From NCBI RefSeq assembly GCF_000413475.1, contig NZ_ATFK01000002.1, positions 124,001 to 188,000 of the forward strand: 64,000 nucleotides of DNA, read 5' to 3'. Below the pieces are notes generated by a model, which had not been told where the DNA came from, did no database searches, and worked only from the letters and a program-made list of their open reading frames with translations. Both the position numbers and the translations under genes were made by a program. Position 1 is the stretch's first letter. Each line of letters begins with the position of its first letter. Below, in pieces: positions 1,910 through 39,944 of the stretch. The DNA is from Streptococcus intermedius SK54 = ATCC 27335. GTDB lineage: Bacteria; Bacillota; Bacilli; Lactobacillales; Streptococcaceae.

Positions 1910-2737
1910 TTAATAAATTTCTGGGAAAAGTTTCGCTAAAATGTTAGGCGTAATGCTTTGACCGGGTCCTTCTGCACAATAGGTGTACATGTATATATAT
2001 GGCTTGAAATTGAGTTCGATGCAGGTGCAGTTGGACTCTTTTTTGCTGGCTGGAAGCGTGCTATCCGAGATAATTAAATCCACGCCACAAACTCAAGCTC
2101 CCATAGCAGTTGCCATTTCTGCCGCTAATTCCTTGTAGGAAGTGTGCATGATTTCAGTCACATCTACTGAGTCTCCGCCAGTAGAAATATTAGAATTGCA
2201 CCGGAGAAAGACTTGAACTCCTTTTGGTAAGATATCGTCTGCTTTATAACCTTGCTGAGCTAGCATGAGTAGCTCGATCTCTCCTAGTTTGATTCTTTCC
2301 AAAGGAGAGCGGTGATCTCGACTGCGCAGGGGATTGGCGTTTTTCGTAGCGACCAATTCTCGAATAGTGTGTCGACCGTCTCCTCTAACGTTGGCTGGCA
2401 AACGTAGGAGTACCGCTTCACATTTGCCATCTAGGACGAAAAAGCAGTACTCGGTTCCTGCGATAAATTCCTCGCCAAGGACAGAGCTGTCTTCTGAAAA
2501 GGCAATTTCCAATGCTTTTTGGGAACTGTCTAGATTGGTAGGCTCTTGAAAAATAGAAATTCCTAAACCGAAGTTAGTGGATTTAGGTTTGATGACAATC
2601 GATTTGTCCTTTCCGAAAGTAGCTTGTAGAATAGGAACATCTACTGCTATTTTTTCTAACAAATGATTGATGTTCACGGTAAATACCTGTTTGTTTTCTA
2701 ATACTTTTAGTCTATTATAAAAATGCTTAGAAGACAA
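1910..2737 (-). pseudogene. gshAB: Remnant of bifunctional glutathione synthetase GshAB (C-terminal ATP-grasp part)
   Basis: The minus-strand frame encodes the ATP-grasp (glutathione synthetase-like) domain of GshF/GshAB: the segments VIKPKSTNFGLGISIF, EFIAGTEYCFFVLDGK, LPANVRGDGRHTI and NSNISTGGDSVDVT are family hallmarks. The roughly 500-residue N-terminal gamma-glutamylcysteine ligase domain is absent; the readable frame begins near 2737 with no good start (only TTG). A TGA stop at 2093-2095 interrupts the frame right after ATAMGA. The same frame then continues for 60 codons with the expected tail (VCGVDLI, ELNFKPYIYMY, GPGQSITPNIL) to a stop at 1910. So the gene is both 5'-deleted and interrupted by a nonsense codon, and should be non-functional. 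Confidence 0.88.
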
Positions 2738-2860
2738 ATGTCTACTACATTTTCCGAACTTTTTTAAAAGAAAATGCTCATAATTTTAGATAAGATACAG
2801 ATTTTACAAAAGCGAGATGTTCAAACTTCGTCATTTGCAAATAACGATGGCGGTCTTATC

Positions 2861-2889
2861 TTGAAAAAAGAAGGAATTTTTCTTATAAT
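2861..2889 (+). promoter_or_regulatory. Promoter of purA
   Basis: TTGAAA at 2861-2866, a 17-bp spacer, and a perfect TATAAT at 2884-2889. A second TATAAT lies at 2901-2906. The leader to purA is about 70 nt. No PurR box or riboswitch fold was recognised. Confidence 0.7.
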
Positions 2890-2915
2890 AAAGTGTAAGA
2901 TATAATTGCGGGTGA

Positions 2916-4259
<1,344 letters not shown>

Positions 4260-4270
4260 TAGAAGCAAAC

Positions 4271-4297
4271 AAAGCGGGTTTCGGCTCGCTTTTTATT
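4271..4297 (+). terminator. Intrinsic terminator of purA
   Basis: AAAGCG at 4271-4276 pairs with CGCTTT at 4287-4292, extended by a G-T and a G-C pair, with a T-rich tail directly after the stem. Confidence 0.8.
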
Positions 4298-4330
4298 GAC
4301 GCAATAAAAAAGTTTAAATAATGATTCTCT

Positions 4331-4363
4331 CTTAAGTTAATTTTAAGCTGGCTAGGTTATACT
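4331..4363 (+). promoter_or_regulatory. CiaR-type promoter (NTTAAG-N5-WTTAAG, 10 bp, -10)
   Basis: CTTAAG at 4331-4336, five bases, TTTAAG at 4342-4347, exactly ten bases, then TATACT at 4358-4363. The direct repeat and its 10-bp distance to the -10 box match the known architecture of promoters activated by the streptococcal response regulator CiaR. There is no separate -35 box; the repeat occupies that place. Confidence 0.85.
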
Positions 4364-4369
4364 AAAATC

Positions 4370-4458
4370 ATCAGATGAAGACCTCCTAACTTTATTTGAT
4401 AGAAATCCTAAACTTTTTCATAATAATCTCCTGAAAGCCATCGAAAGGTGGCTTTTTT
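4370..4458 (+). ncRNA. CiaR-dependent small RNA (csRNA)
   Basis: An intergenic RNA of about 90 nt, starting about 7 nt after the -10 box and ending in a strong intrinsic terminator (AAAGCCA at 4434-4440 pairs with TGGCTTT at 4449-4455, then a T-run). It has no ORF. The predicted single-stranded body has three pyrimidine-rich anti-Shine-Dalgarno-like stretches: ACCTCCTAAC (4381-4390), ATCCTAAAC and ATCTCCTGA. This is the hallmark of csRNAs, which block translation by pairing over ribosome binding sites and starts. In pneumococci the csRNA targets include genes for competence and uptake. The exact 5' and 3' ends are inferred. Confidence 0.85.
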
Positions 4459-4510
4459 TATATTTTCGGGTTTATAACATGATATAATAAATGGAGAACA
4501 AAGGAGATAA

Positions 4511-5413
4511 ATGATGAACTTTACAGATTTGTCTAATAAAGAACAGGAAAAAATAATGATAAGTAAAATTATCAGGAATTTAAAAAAGCTAGGTGGCTAT
4601 GCAACCAAACGAGAGTTGCTAGATGCTATTAAAAAGGGAGAAAATACGATAGATGAGAATTTTTTTGAGGAAGAAAAAGTGTCTCAAAAAAGTGGAAAAT
4701 TTATAAACCTAGTGATTACACTTTTGATTTTTCTGTCAAAAGTTTGCTTACCACGGGTTATCTTTCTAAACCAAAGCAATCGACTTTTGAATTGACAGAA
4801 TATAGGTAGAAAAGTGAAACTGGATGAGCATTTTGCTAGCGATATTCAACAGAAAGCCATTCAATTTTGGAAAAATGAAAAGAAGTCAAAACAATTCTTC
4901 AAGTTATCCTTTGAAAAGGAACTAAAACATTCACTAGATGACTCAAAAGAAAATTGGAGAGTTGAGTTGACAAAAGCTTTAAAATCTATGTCACCACAAA
5001 AATTTGAAACTTTTGCTCGTGGTCTAGTCAAGGAGATGGGTATCAAACTAGATGAAAAAATTGGGGTTAGTTATACTAATGATGGTGGTTTAGATGGTTT
5101 TGGCGATATTACTAGTACAGATGACTTCAGAACCAATCGTGTAGCTATCCAAGCAAAGCATTGGGAAAACAAAGTTCCTTCTTCGGAGATTGATAAATTC
5201 CGTGGTGCAATGGATAAATACAATGCAGAATATGGTATTTTTATTACAACTTCTGATTTTTCAAGAAGTGCCACTGAAGCAGCTCGTCAAGGGACTAGAG
5301 TCATTACTTTAATCAATAGCGAGGATATTGCGGATCTAGTTGCCAAATATAAACTTCATGTCAGGGAAGTCATGACTTATGAATTAGGAGATTTTTATCA
5401 TACAGAGGATTAG
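4511..5413 (+). pseudogene. Mrr-type restriction endonuclease, two compensating frameshifts
   Basis: Three collinear pieces make one Mrr-like protein of about 300 residues. Piece 1 (from 4511) is the N-terminal winged-helix part (KLGGYATKRELLDAIKKGE). Near 4700 the coding sense moves to another frame (YKPSDYTFDFSVKSLLTTGY, ending FELTEY), as if one base were lost. At 4804 one extra base returns it to the first frame (GRKVKLDEHFAS). The last piece holds the nuclease domain with NDGGLDGFGDI and the catalytic QAKHW, then GIFITTSDFSRSA. In the present sequence the first frame stops at 4795. A GTG at 4814 could still start the catalytic domain alone (199 residues). The family cleaves modified DNA. 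It lies 11 nt upstream of tadA. Confidence 0.8.
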
Positions 5414-5424
5414 ACGGTTAAAAG

Positions 5425-5892
5425 ATGAACTATACAGTTGAAGAAAAAGAATTTTTTATGCGGGAGGCTTTGAAAGAAGCAGAGATTGCGCTTGCTAATG
5501 ATGAAATTCCGATTGGTTGTGTTATTGTCAAGGACGGGAAGGTTATCGGTCGTGGACATAATGCACGTGAGGAATTGCAGCGAGCGGTCATGCATGCGGA
5601 AGTGATGGCAATTGAGAAAGCCAATCAGCATGAGCATAGCTGGCGTCTGCTGGATACGACCCTTTTTGTCACTATTGAACCTTGTGTCATGTGCAGCGGA
5701 GCAATTGGGCTAGCACGGATTCCGCAAGTCATCTATGGTGCAAAGAATCCAAAATTCGGAGCAGCAGGCAGTCTTTATGACATTTTAACAGATGAACGTC
5801 TTAATCACCGAGTTGAACTGGAAACTGGGATTTTGGAGGTAGAATGTGCTCAGATGATGCAAGATTTTTTTAGAAAGAGGAGACAGAGATGA
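5425..5892 (+). CDS. tadA: tRNA-specific adenosine deaminase
   Basis: Deaminates adenosine-34 of tRNA-Arg(ACG) to inosine, giving wobble decoding of CGN codons. The 155-residue protein has the zinc/catalytic motifs of the cytidine deaminase fold: HAEV at residues 57-60 (zinc histidine and proton-shuttle glutamate) and PCVMC at 86-90 (two zinc cysteines). The start ATG follows the mrr remnant by 11 nt, and the stop overlaps the next gene by 4 bp. Confidence 0.96.
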   Translation: MNYTVEEKEFFMREALKEAEIALANDEIPIGCVIVKDGKVIGRGHNAREELQRAVMHAEVMAIEKANQHEHSWRLLDTTLFVTIEPCVMCSGAIGLARIPQVIYGAKNPKFGAAGSLYDILTDERLNHRVELETGILEVECAQMMQDFFRKRRQR

Positions 5893-6431
5893 AACGTTGG
5901 CTAAGTATTTTATTCTTTCTTTTGACATTGTTGTTTATTGGGTTGCTGATAGGGAATGTAGAATTTCAAGCTTGGGCTTTCACACGTCATCAAAATCAGC
6001 TATCTTGGTATATCCGTCCGATTCTCATTTTACCGATTATCTATTTTTCCTATCGAAAGAGCCTTCTTGGAATTTCTGCTAGCATCTTTGCTCTTTTTAC
6101 CAGTATGATTTGGTTTTGGGAACCAAAGACGACTTTTCCTTTGGTAAAAGAGTTTCTAACTTATGAGCAAGATTTTTTACAGGCAGATTGGAATCTTAAA
6201 AAAATTTTATTTATCTTTTTGGTGATTAGTTTCTTTCTGCTCCTGGTTAGAGCAACTTGGCTCCATAGTTGGAAATTGTTGGCAATACTTTTGATTCTTA
6301 CAGCTTTTTTGAAAATCCTCTGGTCTTATCTAGATAGTGGGAGAGCTGGTTTAACAATTGTGGTGCCAGCGATTCTAGGTTTATTTATCTGTTTATTTTT
6401 CCTTTCTTTTTGGATGAAGGGAAAATCTTAA
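5889..6431 (+). CDS. Conserved membrane protein of unknown function
   Basis: A 180-residue protein with about five or six predicted membrane segments: residues 5-22, 36-50, 56-72, 101-118, 125-143 and 155-175. Short aromatic-rich loops join them. It overlaps tadA by 4 bp (ATGA), so the two are translationally coupled. I see no catalytic motif and do not recognise the family. The conserved-looking pairing with tadA could simply reflect shared transcription. Confidence 0.75.
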   Translation: MKRWLSILFFLLTLLFIGLLIGNVEFQAWAFTRHQNQLSWYIRPILILPIIYFSYRKSLLGISASIFALFTSMIWFWEPKTTFPLVKEFLTYEQDFLQADWNLKKILFIFLVISFFLLLVRATWLHSWKLLAILLILTAFLKILWSYLDSGRAGLTIVVPAILGLFICLFFLSFWMKGKS

Positions 6432-6460
6432 TTGGCATAGAAACAAATTTATGGTATAAT
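6432..6460 (+). promoter_or_regulatory. Promoter of the SRP RNA gene
   Basis: TTGGCA at 6432-6437, a 17-bp spacer and a perfect TATAAT at 6455-6460, placing the start of transcription at about 6467. Confidence 0.8.
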
Positions 6461-6466
6461 ACTTAT

Positions 6467-6546
6467 CGGAGCAACAATTCTGCGTGAAGCGGGTCAGGGG
6501 AGGAATCCAGCAGCCCTAAGCGAGTGTGAATTGTGTGCTCTTTTTA
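6467..6546 (+). ncRNA. ffs: Signal recognition particle RNA (4.5S/scRNA)
   Basis: The conserved SRP RNA apical domain is readable: GGTCAGGGGAGGAATCC, then CAGCAGCCCTAAGC, with the GGAA-type tetraloop and the asymmetric loop that binds Ffh. The outer arms pair (GAGCAACAATTC at 6469-6480 with GAATTGTGTGCTC at 6528-6540) and a T-run follows. The roughly 80-nt length is that of the small streptococcal form without an Alu domain. Confidence 0.93.
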
Positions 6547-6581
6547 TGGTATGAAGAATAGGAACAATTCTAAAGCGCGTG

Positions 6582-35528: not shown

Positions 35529-37610
35529 ATGGCTCGCGAATTTTCACTTGAAAAAACTCGTAACATCGGTATCATGGCTCACGTCGATGCTGGTAAAACA
35601 ACAACGACTGAACGTATTCTTTACTATACCGGTAAAATCCATAAAATTGGTGAAACACACGAAGGTGCTTCACAAATGGACTGGATGGAACAAGAACAAG
35701 AACGTGGTATTACAATTACATCTGCTGCAACAACAGCACAATGGAAAGATTATCGTGTCAATATTATCGACACGCCAGGACACGTGGACTTCACTATTGA
35801 AGTACAACGTTCGCTTCGTGTATTGGACGGTGCTGTAACTGTTCTTGATTCACAATCAGGTGTTGAACCTCAAACGGAAACAGTTTGGCGTCAAGCAACT
35901 GAGTATGGTGTTCCACGTATCGTATTTGCTAACAAAATGGATAAAATCGGTGCAGACTTCCTTTACTCAGTAAGTACCCTTCATGATCGTCTTCAAGCAA
36001 ATGCTCACCCAATTCAATTACCAATTGGTGCAGAGGACGACTTCCGTGGAATCATTGACTTGGTTCGTATGAAAGCTGAAATCTATACAAACGACCTTGG
36101 GACAGATATTCTTGAAGAAGAAATTCCTGCTGATTACCTTGAACAAGCTCAAGAATGGCGTGAAAAATTAGTCGAAGCAGTTGCTGAAACTGACGAAGAC
36201 TTGATGATGAAATACCTTGAAGGTGAAGAAATTACTGAGGCAGAATTGAAAGCTGCAATCCGTAAGGCAACGATTAATGTTGAATTCTTCCCAGTTCTTG
36301 CTGGTTCTGCCTTCAAGAACAAAGGTGTTCAAATGATGCTTGATGCAGTTATTGACTACCTTCCAAGCCCACTTGATATTCCAGCTATTAAAGGTGTAAA
36401 CCCAGATACAGACGAAGAAGAAACTCGTCCAGCTTCTGATGAAGAACCATTTGCAGCACTTGCTTTCAAGATTATGACGGACCCATTTGTAGGTCGTTTG
36501 ACATTCTTCCGTGTTTACTCAGGTGTCTTGAACAGCGGTTCATACGTATTGAATACTTCTAAAGGTAAACGCGAACGTATCGGACGTATCCTGCAGATGC
36601 ACGCAAACCACCGTAACGAAATCGAAACTGTTTACGCAGGTGATATTGCTGCAGCTGTTGGTTTGAAAGATACCACGACTGGTGACTCATTGACGGATGA
36701 AAAAGCAAAAATTATCCTTGAATCTATCGAAGTTCCAGAGCCAGTTATCCAATTGATGGTGGAACCAAAATCTAAAGCTGACCAAGACAAGATGGGTATT
36801 GCTCTTCAAAAATTGGCTGAAGAAGATCCAACATTCCGTGTTGAAACAAACGTTGAAACTGGTGAAACAGTTATCTCTGGTATGGGTGAGCTTCACTTGG
36901 ATGTCCTCGTAGACCGTATGCGTCGTGAATTCAAAGTGGAAGCAAATGTGGGTGCTCCTCAAGTATCTTACCGTGAAACCTTCCGTGCCCAAACATCAGC
37001 GCGTGGCTTCTTCAAACGTCAATCTGGTGGTAAAGGTCAGTTCGGTGACGTTTGGATTGAATTTACTCCAAATGAAGAAGGAAAAGGCTTCGAATTTGAA
37101 AATGCTATTGTTGGTGGTGTCGTTCCACGTGAATTTATCCCAGCCGTAGAAAAAGGATTGGTTGAGTCAATGGCTAACGGTGTCCTTGCAGGTTATCCAA
37201 TCGTTGACGTGAAGGCGAAACTGTATGATGGTTCATACCATGATGTCGATTCATCAGAAACAGCCTTTAAAGTTGCTGCCTCTCTTGCTCTTAAAGAGGC
37301 TGCTAAGACTGCGCAACCAACTATTCTTGAACCAATGATGCTTGTTACTATTACTGTTCCAGAAGAAAACCTTGGTGATGTTATGGGACATGTAACAGCT
37401 CGTCGTGGACGTGTTGATGGTATGGAAGCTCATGGTAACAGCCAAATCGTGCGTGCTTATGTACCACTTGCTGAAATGTTCGGTTATGCAACAGTTCTTC
37501 GTTCAGCATCTCAAGGACGTGGTACTTTCATGATGGTCTTTGACCACTATGAAGATGTACCGAAGTCAGTACAAGAAGAAATCATTAAGAAAAATAAAGG
37601 TGAAGCTTAA
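35529..37610 (+). CDS. fusA: Elongation factor G
   Basis: Translocase GTPase of protein synthesis. 693 residues with the G-domain motifs [13 protein letters not shown] (G1), [11 protein letters not shown] (G2), DTPGHVDF (G3) and [10 protein letters not shown] (G4), followed by domains II-V ([29 protein letters not shown]). It is the third gene of the conserved str cluster. No tufA follows; a terminator does. Codon use is strongly biased, as for its ribosomal neighbours. Confidence 0.99.
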
Positions 37611-37773: not shown

Positions 37774-38382
37774 CTACAGAGAAAAGAGAAACTTAGCCGC
37801 ATCATCGGAACTATCAAGAGCTTTTAAGGAGTTTTTGCTCAAAAGAAAGACGGTGTCACATACTTTGAAGACTTCGGATAAATTATGAGAGGTCAGTAAA
37901 ATAATTTTTTCAGAGCCGTATTCTTTTAGCAAATTGTATGCGGCGAAACGTCTTCGTTCATCCAGCCCGTCCAGCAACTCATCTAAAATAAGAATATCAC
38001 TTTGAATAGACAGGGCATATAAGAAAGCGAACAGCTCTTTCATTCCTAGAGAATATTTTCCGATTTTTTTCTTGAAATAATTAGCTCCGCCCATTCTAGC
38101 TAAATTTTTCTGAAATGTACTTTGCTCCTCTGAGGACAATAATGTGAGATAGTCATGGGCTGACAGATGCTTGTCAAAAATGTCTAGGCTTGGAATGTAA
38201 GCAACTTTTCCGCTTTGGATTTCTCCATCGAATCCTTTGATTTCTCCGTTGATTAGACTAAAGAGGGTGCTTTTGCCAATGCCGTTTGGTCCGATCATTC
38301 CATAAAGCCCTGGAGTTGTCAGTTCAAACGTTAACTGTTGAAAGATAGTTGTTGTTAGATTGTTTATAGAGAATCCTGTCAT
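37774..38382 (-). CDS. ABC transporter ATP-binding protein
   Basis: A short (202-residue) ATPase subunit with Walker A GPNGIGKST (about residues 34-42), signature region KYSLGMKELFAFLYAL (the LSGGQ motif replaced by SLGMKE, as in many bacteriocin- or antibiotic-type ABC-2 systems) and Walker B ILILDELLDGLDE, then the H-loop LLTSHNL. Its start overlaps the stop of the permease gene by 4 bp, so the two form one transporter. The C-terminus is short for the family. The role is probably export of, or immunity to, a peptide. Confidence 0.88.
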   Translation of the reverse strand: MTGFSINNLTTTIFQQLTFELTTPGLYGMIGPNGIGKSTLFSLINGEIKGFDGEIQSGKVAYIPSLDIFDKHLSAHDYLTLLSSEEQSTFQKNLARMGGANYFKKKIGKYSLGMKELFAFLYALSIQSDILILDELLDGLDERRRFAAYNLLKEYGSEKIILLTSHNLSEVFKVCDTVFLLSKNSLKALDSSDDAAKFLFSL

Positions 38383-39515: not shown

Positions 39516-39537
39516 AAATATACCTCGTACAAAAGGA

Positions 39538-39567
39538 ACATAGAGGCTAGATTGATAGCCTCTATGT
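39538..39567 (-). terminator. Hairpin between the secreted peptide gene and the ABC genes
   Basis: A perfect 12-bp stem (ACATAGAGGCTA / TAGCCTCTATGT) with a 6-nt loop. On the minus strand it is followed by TCCTTTTGT, a weak T-run, so partial termination (an attenuator giving more peptide mRNA than transporter mRNA) is likely. Confidence 0.65.
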
Positions 39568-39574
39568 TTAGCTA

Positions 39575-39853
39575 TTAATAAGTCTGATAGTGATAGATAT
39601 AAAGAAATGCTGGATTAATACCTTCATAACGATTAATCCGTTCTATTTTGGATACACGAAAACCTCTGTGATAATACAAGTTCATCCAAGAATAAGATGT
39701 TCGAGTGACTCCACCCATAACAAGATGAACCTCATATTTAGTGTGTACAACTGAGGCTATGTTAGCAGCTGAGACGATATTTTTGGCACCTAGACCAAGT
39801 AAAGTTGCAAGAATTGCAATCAATAAAGCGTTTTTCTTAACTTTTTTCACCAT
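39575..39853 (-). CDS. Small secreted protein, bacteriocin-like candidate
   Basis: 92 residues. A basic N-terminus (MVKKVKKN), a hydrophobic core and a likely cleavage site after NIVSA give a mature product of about 64 residues. That part is rich in Tyr, His, Arg and Ile (TSYSWMNLYYHRGF and a C-terminal YIYHYQTY) with no cysteine. AAGGAGGAT precedes the ATG. Size, export signal, aromatic content, the ABC-2 genes downstream and a cre-like site upstream together suggest a secreted antimicrobial or signalling peptide. Similarity to the lactococcin 972 family (a tyrosine-histidine motif in a class IId-type peptide) is suggestive only. Confidence 0.7.
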   Translation of the reverse strand: MVKKVKKNALLIAILATLLGLGAKNIVSAANIASVVHTKYEVHLVMGGVTRTSYSWMNLYYHRGFRVSKIERINRYEGINPAFLYIYHYQTY

Positions 39854-39905
39854 TGTATTTATCCTCCTTACAATAAATATAAAAGTGTTTGTCTAGACAT
39901 TTTTT

Positions 39906-39934
39906 ATTATATCATAAAAACTGCAAAATGTAAA
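39906..39934 (-). promoter_or_regulatory. Promoter of the small secreted protein gene
   Basis: On the minus strand, TTTACA (39934-39929), a 17-bp spacer and a perfect TATAAT (39911-39906). Confidence 0.8.
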
Positions 39935-39944
39935 GCGCTTTCAC
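39929..39944. promoter_or_regulatory. cre-like site over the -35 box
   Basis: TGTAAAGCGCTTTCAC has the AAAGCGCTTT palindromic core and TG/CA flanks of catabolite-responsive elements, with one flank shifted by one base. It overlaps the -35 box of the minus-strand promoter, so CcpA binding would repress the secreted-protein gene on rich sugar. Confidence 0.6.

Follow-up and report, generated by a model that had tools for sequence, protein, structure and literature searches.

A three-gene unit between fusA and gapA

The stretch of Streptococcus intermedius SK54 (ATCC 27335) analyzed here, 64,000 nucleotides in full and called the window below, carries a compact three-gene unit between fusA and gapA. 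All of its parts lie on the minus strand and follow one another in the order promoter, gene for a 92-amino-acid protein, hairpin, ABC-2 permease gene, and ABC ATPase gene (Table 1). The names of the flanking genes in this and the other loci (fusA, gapA, tag, cinA, and recA) are our assignments from reading the translations. Inspection by eye of the genes flanking the unit, in the window and in the other loci read, revealed neither a recognizable modifying enzyme nor lantibiotic genes. Elsewhere in the window, two RNAs scored over the Rfam gathering score: csRNA1, a Cia-dependent small RNA, at positions 4370-4458, and the small SRP RNA at positions 6458-6556.

Table 1. Positions in the window of the genes and regulatory features of the unit
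Feature	Position	Strand	Basis
Promoter, TTTACA-17-TATAAT with TG before the -10 box	39906..39934	-	11/12 consensus matches
Cre-like 10-bp palindrome AAAGCGCTTT over the -35 box	39932..39941		palindrome count
10-bp palindrome TGTCTAGACA near the expected transcription start	39890..39899		palindrome count
Shine-Dalgarno sequence AAGGAGG of the small gene	39863..39869	-	read from sequence
Small-protein gene, 92 aa	39575..39853	-	ORF, family alignment, dN/dS
Predicted leader, about residues 1-29	39767-39853	-	boundary inferred from the -3/-1 rule (VSA)
Predicted mature part, about residues 30-92	39578-39766	-	pI 9.6, charge +4
Intercistronic hairpin with weak U-run	39537..39568	-	hairpin scan, folding
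ABC-2 permease gene, 378 aa	38379..39515	-	PF12698, alignment
ABC ATPase gene, 202 aa, YSLGM signature	37774..38382	-	PF00005, alignment

The unit also occupies the fusA-gapA site in three other Streptococcus loci, L013, L014 (S. sanguinis KO16), and L016 (HKU4), which served for comparison of the control sequences. The first-pass annotation had placed a good promoter ahead of the small gene, and the site found there, with its near-consensus boxes and TG extension, was the best of 15 promoter-like sites between positions 37000 and 42500 (12.3 expected). A matching promoter is present in S. sanguinis KO16 and in HKU4. In L013, an IS30 element takes the place of the -35 side and the palindrome, and the -10 box is kept. 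An IS30-family transposase gene was located at L013:8338-9270, upstream of the small gene.

The cre-like palindrome that had been described over the -35 box was upheld as a palindrome but not as a match to the cre consensus. The perfect 10-bp palindrome AAAGCGCTTT occurs twice in the window (0.20 expected), and a palindrome of this type covers the -35 box in three of the four fusA-gapA loci (the window, L014, and L016). The 15-bp cre consensus is WTGNAANCGNWWNCA; at one mismatch or fewer, it had eight matches in the window (12.7 expected), none of them at the promoter palindrome. The 12-base version of the palindrome, TGAAAGCGCTTT, was found twice in the whole genome, against one occurrence of the reversed control pattern. 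The second palindrome, TGTCTAGACA, occurs once in the window (0.05 expected), is kept in L014, and is degraded in L016.

The hairpin with a weak T-run reported between the small gene and the permease gene was recovered by scanning as 13 pairs closing a loop of 6, with a minimum free energy of -21.5 kcal/mol and a z score of -5.5; none of 200 shuffled sequences was as stable, and the U-run, CCUUUUGU, is weak. Hairpins were present in 6 of 10 loci, comprising the four fusA-gapA loci together with L015 (weaker) and L017, both of which have other sequences at this position. None was found in L019, L020, and L021, and the long spacer of L018 was left unjudged. The cre-like site and the hairpin are lineage features.

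The small protein and its ABC pair

The small gene, which had been proposed to encode an exported protein, is a real coding gene under purifying selection, with a dN of 0.071 and a dS of 0.30 against its counterpart in S. sanguinis KO16. Its leader, read from the alignment, has the basic n-region, hydrophobic core, and VSA site of the Sec type; the -3/-1 rule (VSA) puts the leader boundary at about residue 29, which would leave ANIASVV as the mature N-terminus, and Sec export is predicted. Across the family, the mature parts are 61 to 63 residues long, basic (pI 9.1-10.1), Tyr-rich, and without cysteine. The alignment of eight sequences (seven distinct) contained 21 invariant positions. Pairwise identity was 57.3% in the leader and 55.4% in the mature part, and the C-terminal stretch was the most conserved part of the protein (69.7%). 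Both the alignment and the dN/dS comparison were made without the HKU4 gene (L016/L004), in which the frame faults of the small gene and the permease are probably sequence errors, and without L013, in which the small protein is identical to that of the window. For L015, in which the small gene starts out of frame, the protein was taken from about window residue 8 onward.

Database searches bore out the earlier statement that the protein belongs to no recognizable family. The window protein had no Pfam match at E 1, only a weak NCBIfam match (0.064; other members gave scattered weak matches, the best at 0.011), no PHROGs match at E 1, no PDB match better than E 1.4, and no usable match in PADLOC. 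The possibility that it is a fragment of a larger known protein was rejected, as no usable match to such a protein was obtained in Pfam, NCBIfam, PHROGs, PDB, or PADLOC. Two AlphaFold models from three sequences each reached mean pLDDT values of 41.8 and 49.4, too poor to use. A search of the literature on streptococcal bacteriocin and Rgg-type topics, by title and the start of the abstract, yielded no description of the unit, which does not imply absence from print. The small protein apparently represents a conserved, undescribed family with a private ABC pump, the function of which we infer below.

The other two genes encode the ABC-2 permease and the ATPase with a degenerate signature that the first-pass annotation had named. 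The window permease scored over the curated cut-off of PF12698 (41.0 against 31.6), and three of the eight aligned permease members, the window's among them, reached E 0.001 with this family. Its membrane layout, as read from sequence, would consist of TM1, a helical extracytoplasmic domain (about residues 40-160), and a membrane-embedded C-terminal half. A helical stretch at about residues 51-130 was modeled with a block pLDDT of 69-80, the rest of the model being poor. The outer domain is more variable than the membrane half, with 36.5% identity against 61.0%.

The ATPase scored over the PF00005 cut-off, and its Walker A motif, YSLGM signature, Walker B motif, and H-loop were invariant in all eight aligned members; the catalytic motifs are intact. 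A YSLGM-type signature resembles that of BcrA/LanF. The best NCBIfam family was TIGR03740 (lantibiotic protection), at 73.7 bits and below its cut-off of 309.75, and PmtC ranked third at 69.8 bits, below its cut-off of 375. The closest solved relative was PDB 6xjh (E 4.8e-21), which we take to be PmtCD. No peptidase domain was matched in either the ATPase or the permease. Between the window and L014, dS rises along the unit, from 0.30 in the small gene to 0.88 in the permease gene and 2.81 in the ATPase gene, and this rise may reflect recombination inside the unit.

Distribution, neighbors, and diverged relatives

Among 284 Streptococcus genomes, the small protein was found in 10 (E 0.01), the permease in 11 (E 1e-10), and the ATPase in 11 (E 1e-35). 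The carrier genomes were the same for all three genes except for G021, which has the pair (L033) without the small gene. The occurrence of the triad in other streptococci, which the first-pass annotation had put forward as a check, was confirmed: in all 10 small-gene loci the order is small protein, permease, ATPase, on the same strand and, by coordinates, with the small gene directly upstream. Rather than being absent beside the ABC genes of all relatives, the small gene is present at 10 of the 11 permease loci. Its open reading frame is intact in eight loci, with reading-frame faults in L015 (at the start) and in L016 (HKU4; the permease is also affected). The number of distinct loci is below 10, because the small proteins of L019 and L020 are identical.

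Outside the fusA-gapA site, the unit lies between tag and cinA-recA in L018 to L021 and at two other sites in L015 and L017. Of 25 Streptococcus genomes examined, 11 lack the cassette here, the end of fusA lying no more than about 480 bp from gapA; L070 and L083 carry other genes in the interval, and in the remaining 12, which include the window's own locus, no fusA was found within 1,500 bp. Given the varied sites and the cassette-free fusA-gapA junctions, the unit seems to come and go as a block. No match was found in plasmids for the small protein or the permease or in phages for the permease, and viral contigs held no relative of the small protein. An order-wide profile search with the small protein returned only its own genome among 395, a sample evidently without the other streptococcal carriers counted above, and this result is not read as their absence.

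A regulator of the Rgg or PlcR/TprA type adjoins the unit in 4 of the 10 loci (3 distinct), namely L017, L019, L020, and L021. The gene in L019, L020, and L021 is a divergent Rgg-type gene, and that in L017 encodes a PlcR/TprA-type regulator with an RNPP_C domain over the Pfam cut-off. In L018, the regulator lies 5.7 kb upstream of the unit, beyond bacteriocin-like genes. The domain scan took in L017, L018, L020, and L021; L019 is the close counterpart of L020. Rgg_C scored over the Pfam cut-off in L018 and L021 and just under it in L020 (24.8 against 27), and TIGR01716 matches in the Rgg-type proteins of L018, L020, and L021 were below cut-off. By eye, a short hydrophobic open reading frame of the candidate pheromone type was seen beside each Rgg-type regulator in L018 to L021, as was a candidate Phr-like open reading frame upstream of the unit in L017. 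The four fusA-gapA loci (the window, L013, L014, and L016) showed no regulator next to the unit, and L015 has a run of N upstream of it. Between the rgg-type gene and the unit in L018, positions 2521-5903 encode two small hydrophobic peptides (82 and 80 amino acids), membrane proteins, and an ABC ATPase; neither peptide received a Pfam or NCBIfam name, and the stretch looks like a separate bacteriocin cluster.

These neighborhoods resemble the TprA/PhrA, Rgg/SHP, and ComR/XIP cassettes in pairing a PlcR/TprA-type regulator with a Phr-like open reading frame (L017) or Rgg-type regulators with short hydrophobic open reading frames (L018 to L021); unlike those cassettes, they stand beside a unit built on a different small-protein family. 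TprA/PhrA controls a predicted lantibiotic cluster in pneumococcus and is itself CcpA-controlled (PMC6753895), ComR-type regulators control bacteriocin loci in salivarius streptococci (PMC12445099), and ScbR lies beside the lactococcin 972-like scbABC genes (PMC11796350).

Related arrangements were found in another family of the Lactobacillales. When 246 Lactobacillales genomes were searched with a permease profile, four matches fell outside Streptococcus (G316, G442, G454, and G424). Directly upstream of a related ATPase-permease pair, G316, G442, and G048 carry an intact gene for a Sec-type protein of 96 to 99 amino acids, Tyr/Lys-rich in G316 and G442. In G454, the small gene upstream of the related pair is broken by a stop, and no small gene lies upstream of the pump relative of G424 (21% identity). 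A search of 25 genomes with the small protein of G442 matched six and added the intact set of G048; the matches in G384, G460, and G499 (E 0.0035-0.008) were set aside as probable chance. A search of 36 genomes of that family with the G442 permease matched seven. The small gene is intact in three of these (G442, G048, and G316), broken in G454, perhaps a remnant in G491, and missing in G424; the remnant is a reading of a 46-amino-acid open reading frame that the G442 small-protein search left unmatched. G309 (22% identity) was left out of this tally, since only 96 bases of its contig precede the ATPase gene. Among the loci of that family, in two genomes, the small gene of L097 is interrupted by a stop, and both the permease and the ATPase of L108 are frameshifted. 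Plasmids held no match to two of the small proteins from that family.

The small proteins of the other family are like the streptococcal ones in size, leader type, and position; the sets differ in that two of the three intact proteins contain cysteine and the ATPase gene precedes the permease gene. Profile-profile alignment (hhalign) of the streptococcal and other-family proteins gave P 0.00019 at full length, leader included, and 0.045 for the mature streptococcal parts, and homology of the mature parts was counted as not established. The layout of a peptide with its own transporter or immunity system, as originally claimed, is strongly supported by the linkage at 10 of the 11 permease loci and by the similar arrangement beside the diverged pump relatives.

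Candidate functions and known systems

The best explanation, to which a probability of about one-half is given, is that the unit encodes an unmodified, Sec-exported bacteriocin-like protein and an ABC pump for self-protection, in a layout like that of streptococcin and lactococcin 972. The 92-residue precursor would leave the cell by the general secretion route, losing its leader of about 29 residues, and the basic, Tyr-rich, cysteine-free mature protein of about 63 residues would target the cell envelope of Gram-positive competitors. The producer's own membrane would be cleared of the protein, by removal or expulsion, through the LanF/Pmt-like ATPase and the ABC-2 permease that bears the helical outer domain, as their families and linkage suggest. 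In this genome, sugar availability may govern expression by way of the -35 box palindrome, and the hairpin may tune the amount of peptide mRNA relative to pump mRNA. This explanation is favored by purifying selection, constant gene order, an ABC pair beside the small gene in 10 of 10 loci, unrelated chromosomal sites, regulator neighbors in 4 of 10 loci with their candidate pheromone reading frames, and intact ATPase motifs. It is also favored by the lantibiotic-protection and modulin-export relatives of the ATPase, the greater variability of the permease outer domain, the similar sets in the other Lactobacillales family, and the lack of a recognizable modifying enzyme. Arguing against it are the frame faults in 2 of 10 small genes and the G424 pump, which has no small gene. 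The bacteriocin reading in particular is opposed by the lack of a match to a known bacteriocin family and by the conserved C-terminus (69.7%), since many bacteriocins diversify; control by Rgg regulators, too, extends to proteins other than bacteriocins, such as StcA (PMC13361665).

Lactococcin 972-type proteins are Sec-exported, and the order of their loci (small Sec-type protein, membrane protein, ABC ATPase) is seen in the window and in all nine other Streptococcus small-gene loci. The membrane protein of those loci is larger than 378 amino acids; the permease of the present unit is instead an ABC-2 protein of 378 amino acids (PF12698). Membership of the small protein in the lactococcin 972 family (PF09683) was rejected by Pfam, which gave no PF09683 match at E 1, and by profile-profile alignment. 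The mature family aligned with 23 lactococcin 972-type proteins over one column only (hhalign probability 0.1%, E 0.42), and with full-length input only the leaders aligned (27 columns, P 0.00011). The 23 were drawn from 37 PF09683 matches, of which 25 had loci, and two of under 76 amino acids were dropped. In the 98-genome search with PF09683, the single match in the unit's own genome was at C2:222175, outside the unit. This lactococcin 972-family gene (L053, G000:C2:222175-222366) lies about 58 kb from the unit and scored 42.1 bits, over the PF09683 cut-off.

Like the unit, the streptococcin B (scbABC) and lactococcin 972-type loci start with a small gene, there for a bacteriocin, and continue with genes predicted to serve immunity and transport. 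The scb genes neighbor a regulator of the ComR type, accompanied in S. pseudopneumoniae by a pheromone gene, and some pneumococcal strains have the scb B and C genes alone (pump-only; PMC11796350). This precedent calls for caution about self-protection, because a protective role of the B and C products is not established and scbBC-only strains are inhibited by streptococcin B (PMC11796350).

Two further known systems were compared through the ABC pair. The unit is like the LanFEG/galliderm (TIGR03740) and BcrAB-type systems in its best NCBIfam family and its YSLGM-type signature, and unlike them in having only one permease, to which a helical outer domain is added, and a TIGR03740 score far below cut-off. 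The unit resembles PmtABCD in the NCBIfam ranking of PmtC and in having 6xjh as its closest solved relative; the Pmt exporter consists of two ATPases and two permeases, whereas the unit has one of each, and its putative substrate gene encodes a Sec-type leader.

Among the other explanations, the one that survives best, though unlikely, is that the small protein is a secreted basic protein that binds the wall or surface for the producer's own benefit (envelope hardening or biofilm), as StcA does, and that the ABC pair moves or guards an envelope component. The basic, Tyr-rich mature part (pI 9.1-10.1), the conserved C-terminus, and the Rgg-type regulators near several loci would suit such a role. 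Rgg regulators also control non-bacteriocin proteins, among them StcA, which binds the wall in S. pyogenes under Rgg2/3 control (PMC13361665). A weapon and its shield would better explain why all 10 loci have a dedicated ABC pair and why the spread is sporadic and site-hopping.

Somewhat less probable again is export of the small protein, or a fragment of it, by the ABC pair in the manner of Pmt, with the product acting as a signal or surfactant and the leader serving for recognition. In favor are the high NCBIfam rank of PmtC for the ATPase, 6xjh as the closest solved relative of the ATPase, and a leader that matches the mature part in conservation (57.3% against 55.4%), which is unusual for a plain signal peptide; against these stand the Sec-type features of that leader (basic n-region, hydrophobic core, and VSA site) and the lack of a peptidase domain match in the ATPase or permease. 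Detoxification of foreign antimicrobial peptides by the pair, with the small protein as their decoy or sensor, is improbable, for despite the large and more divergent extracytoplasmic domain and the ATPase similarity to lantibiotic protection, inspection by eye of the loci read turned up no recognizable two-component system next to the unit, and the small gene comes first in the unit with its own strong promoter.

A bacteriocin-like protein with a self-protection pump is preferred, and a wider form of this reading can be put forward tentatively. The streptococcal and other-family sets could represent a class of antimicrobial proteins, so far undescribed, that are basic, Tyr-rich, unmodified, and Sec-exported and occur across the Lactobacillales, each with a one-permease ABC shield that would recognize its partner by the helical outer domain. 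Members of this class would stand beside varied quorum-sensing switches (Rgg with a short hydrophobic peptide or a TprA-type regulator with a Phr-like peptide) or, in the case of the window, under a promoter that is possibly sugar-responsive.

If the bacteriocin reading is true, the unit would add, beside the lactococcin 972 type, a new family of small unmodified streptococcal antibacterial proteins with a matched self-protection pump. The variable outer domain of that pump would then offer a direct test of how an ABC-2 shield recognizes its toxin. Since the pheromone switch next to the unit differs from species to species, the unit would also provide a natural comparison of how bacteria rewire the timing of attack.
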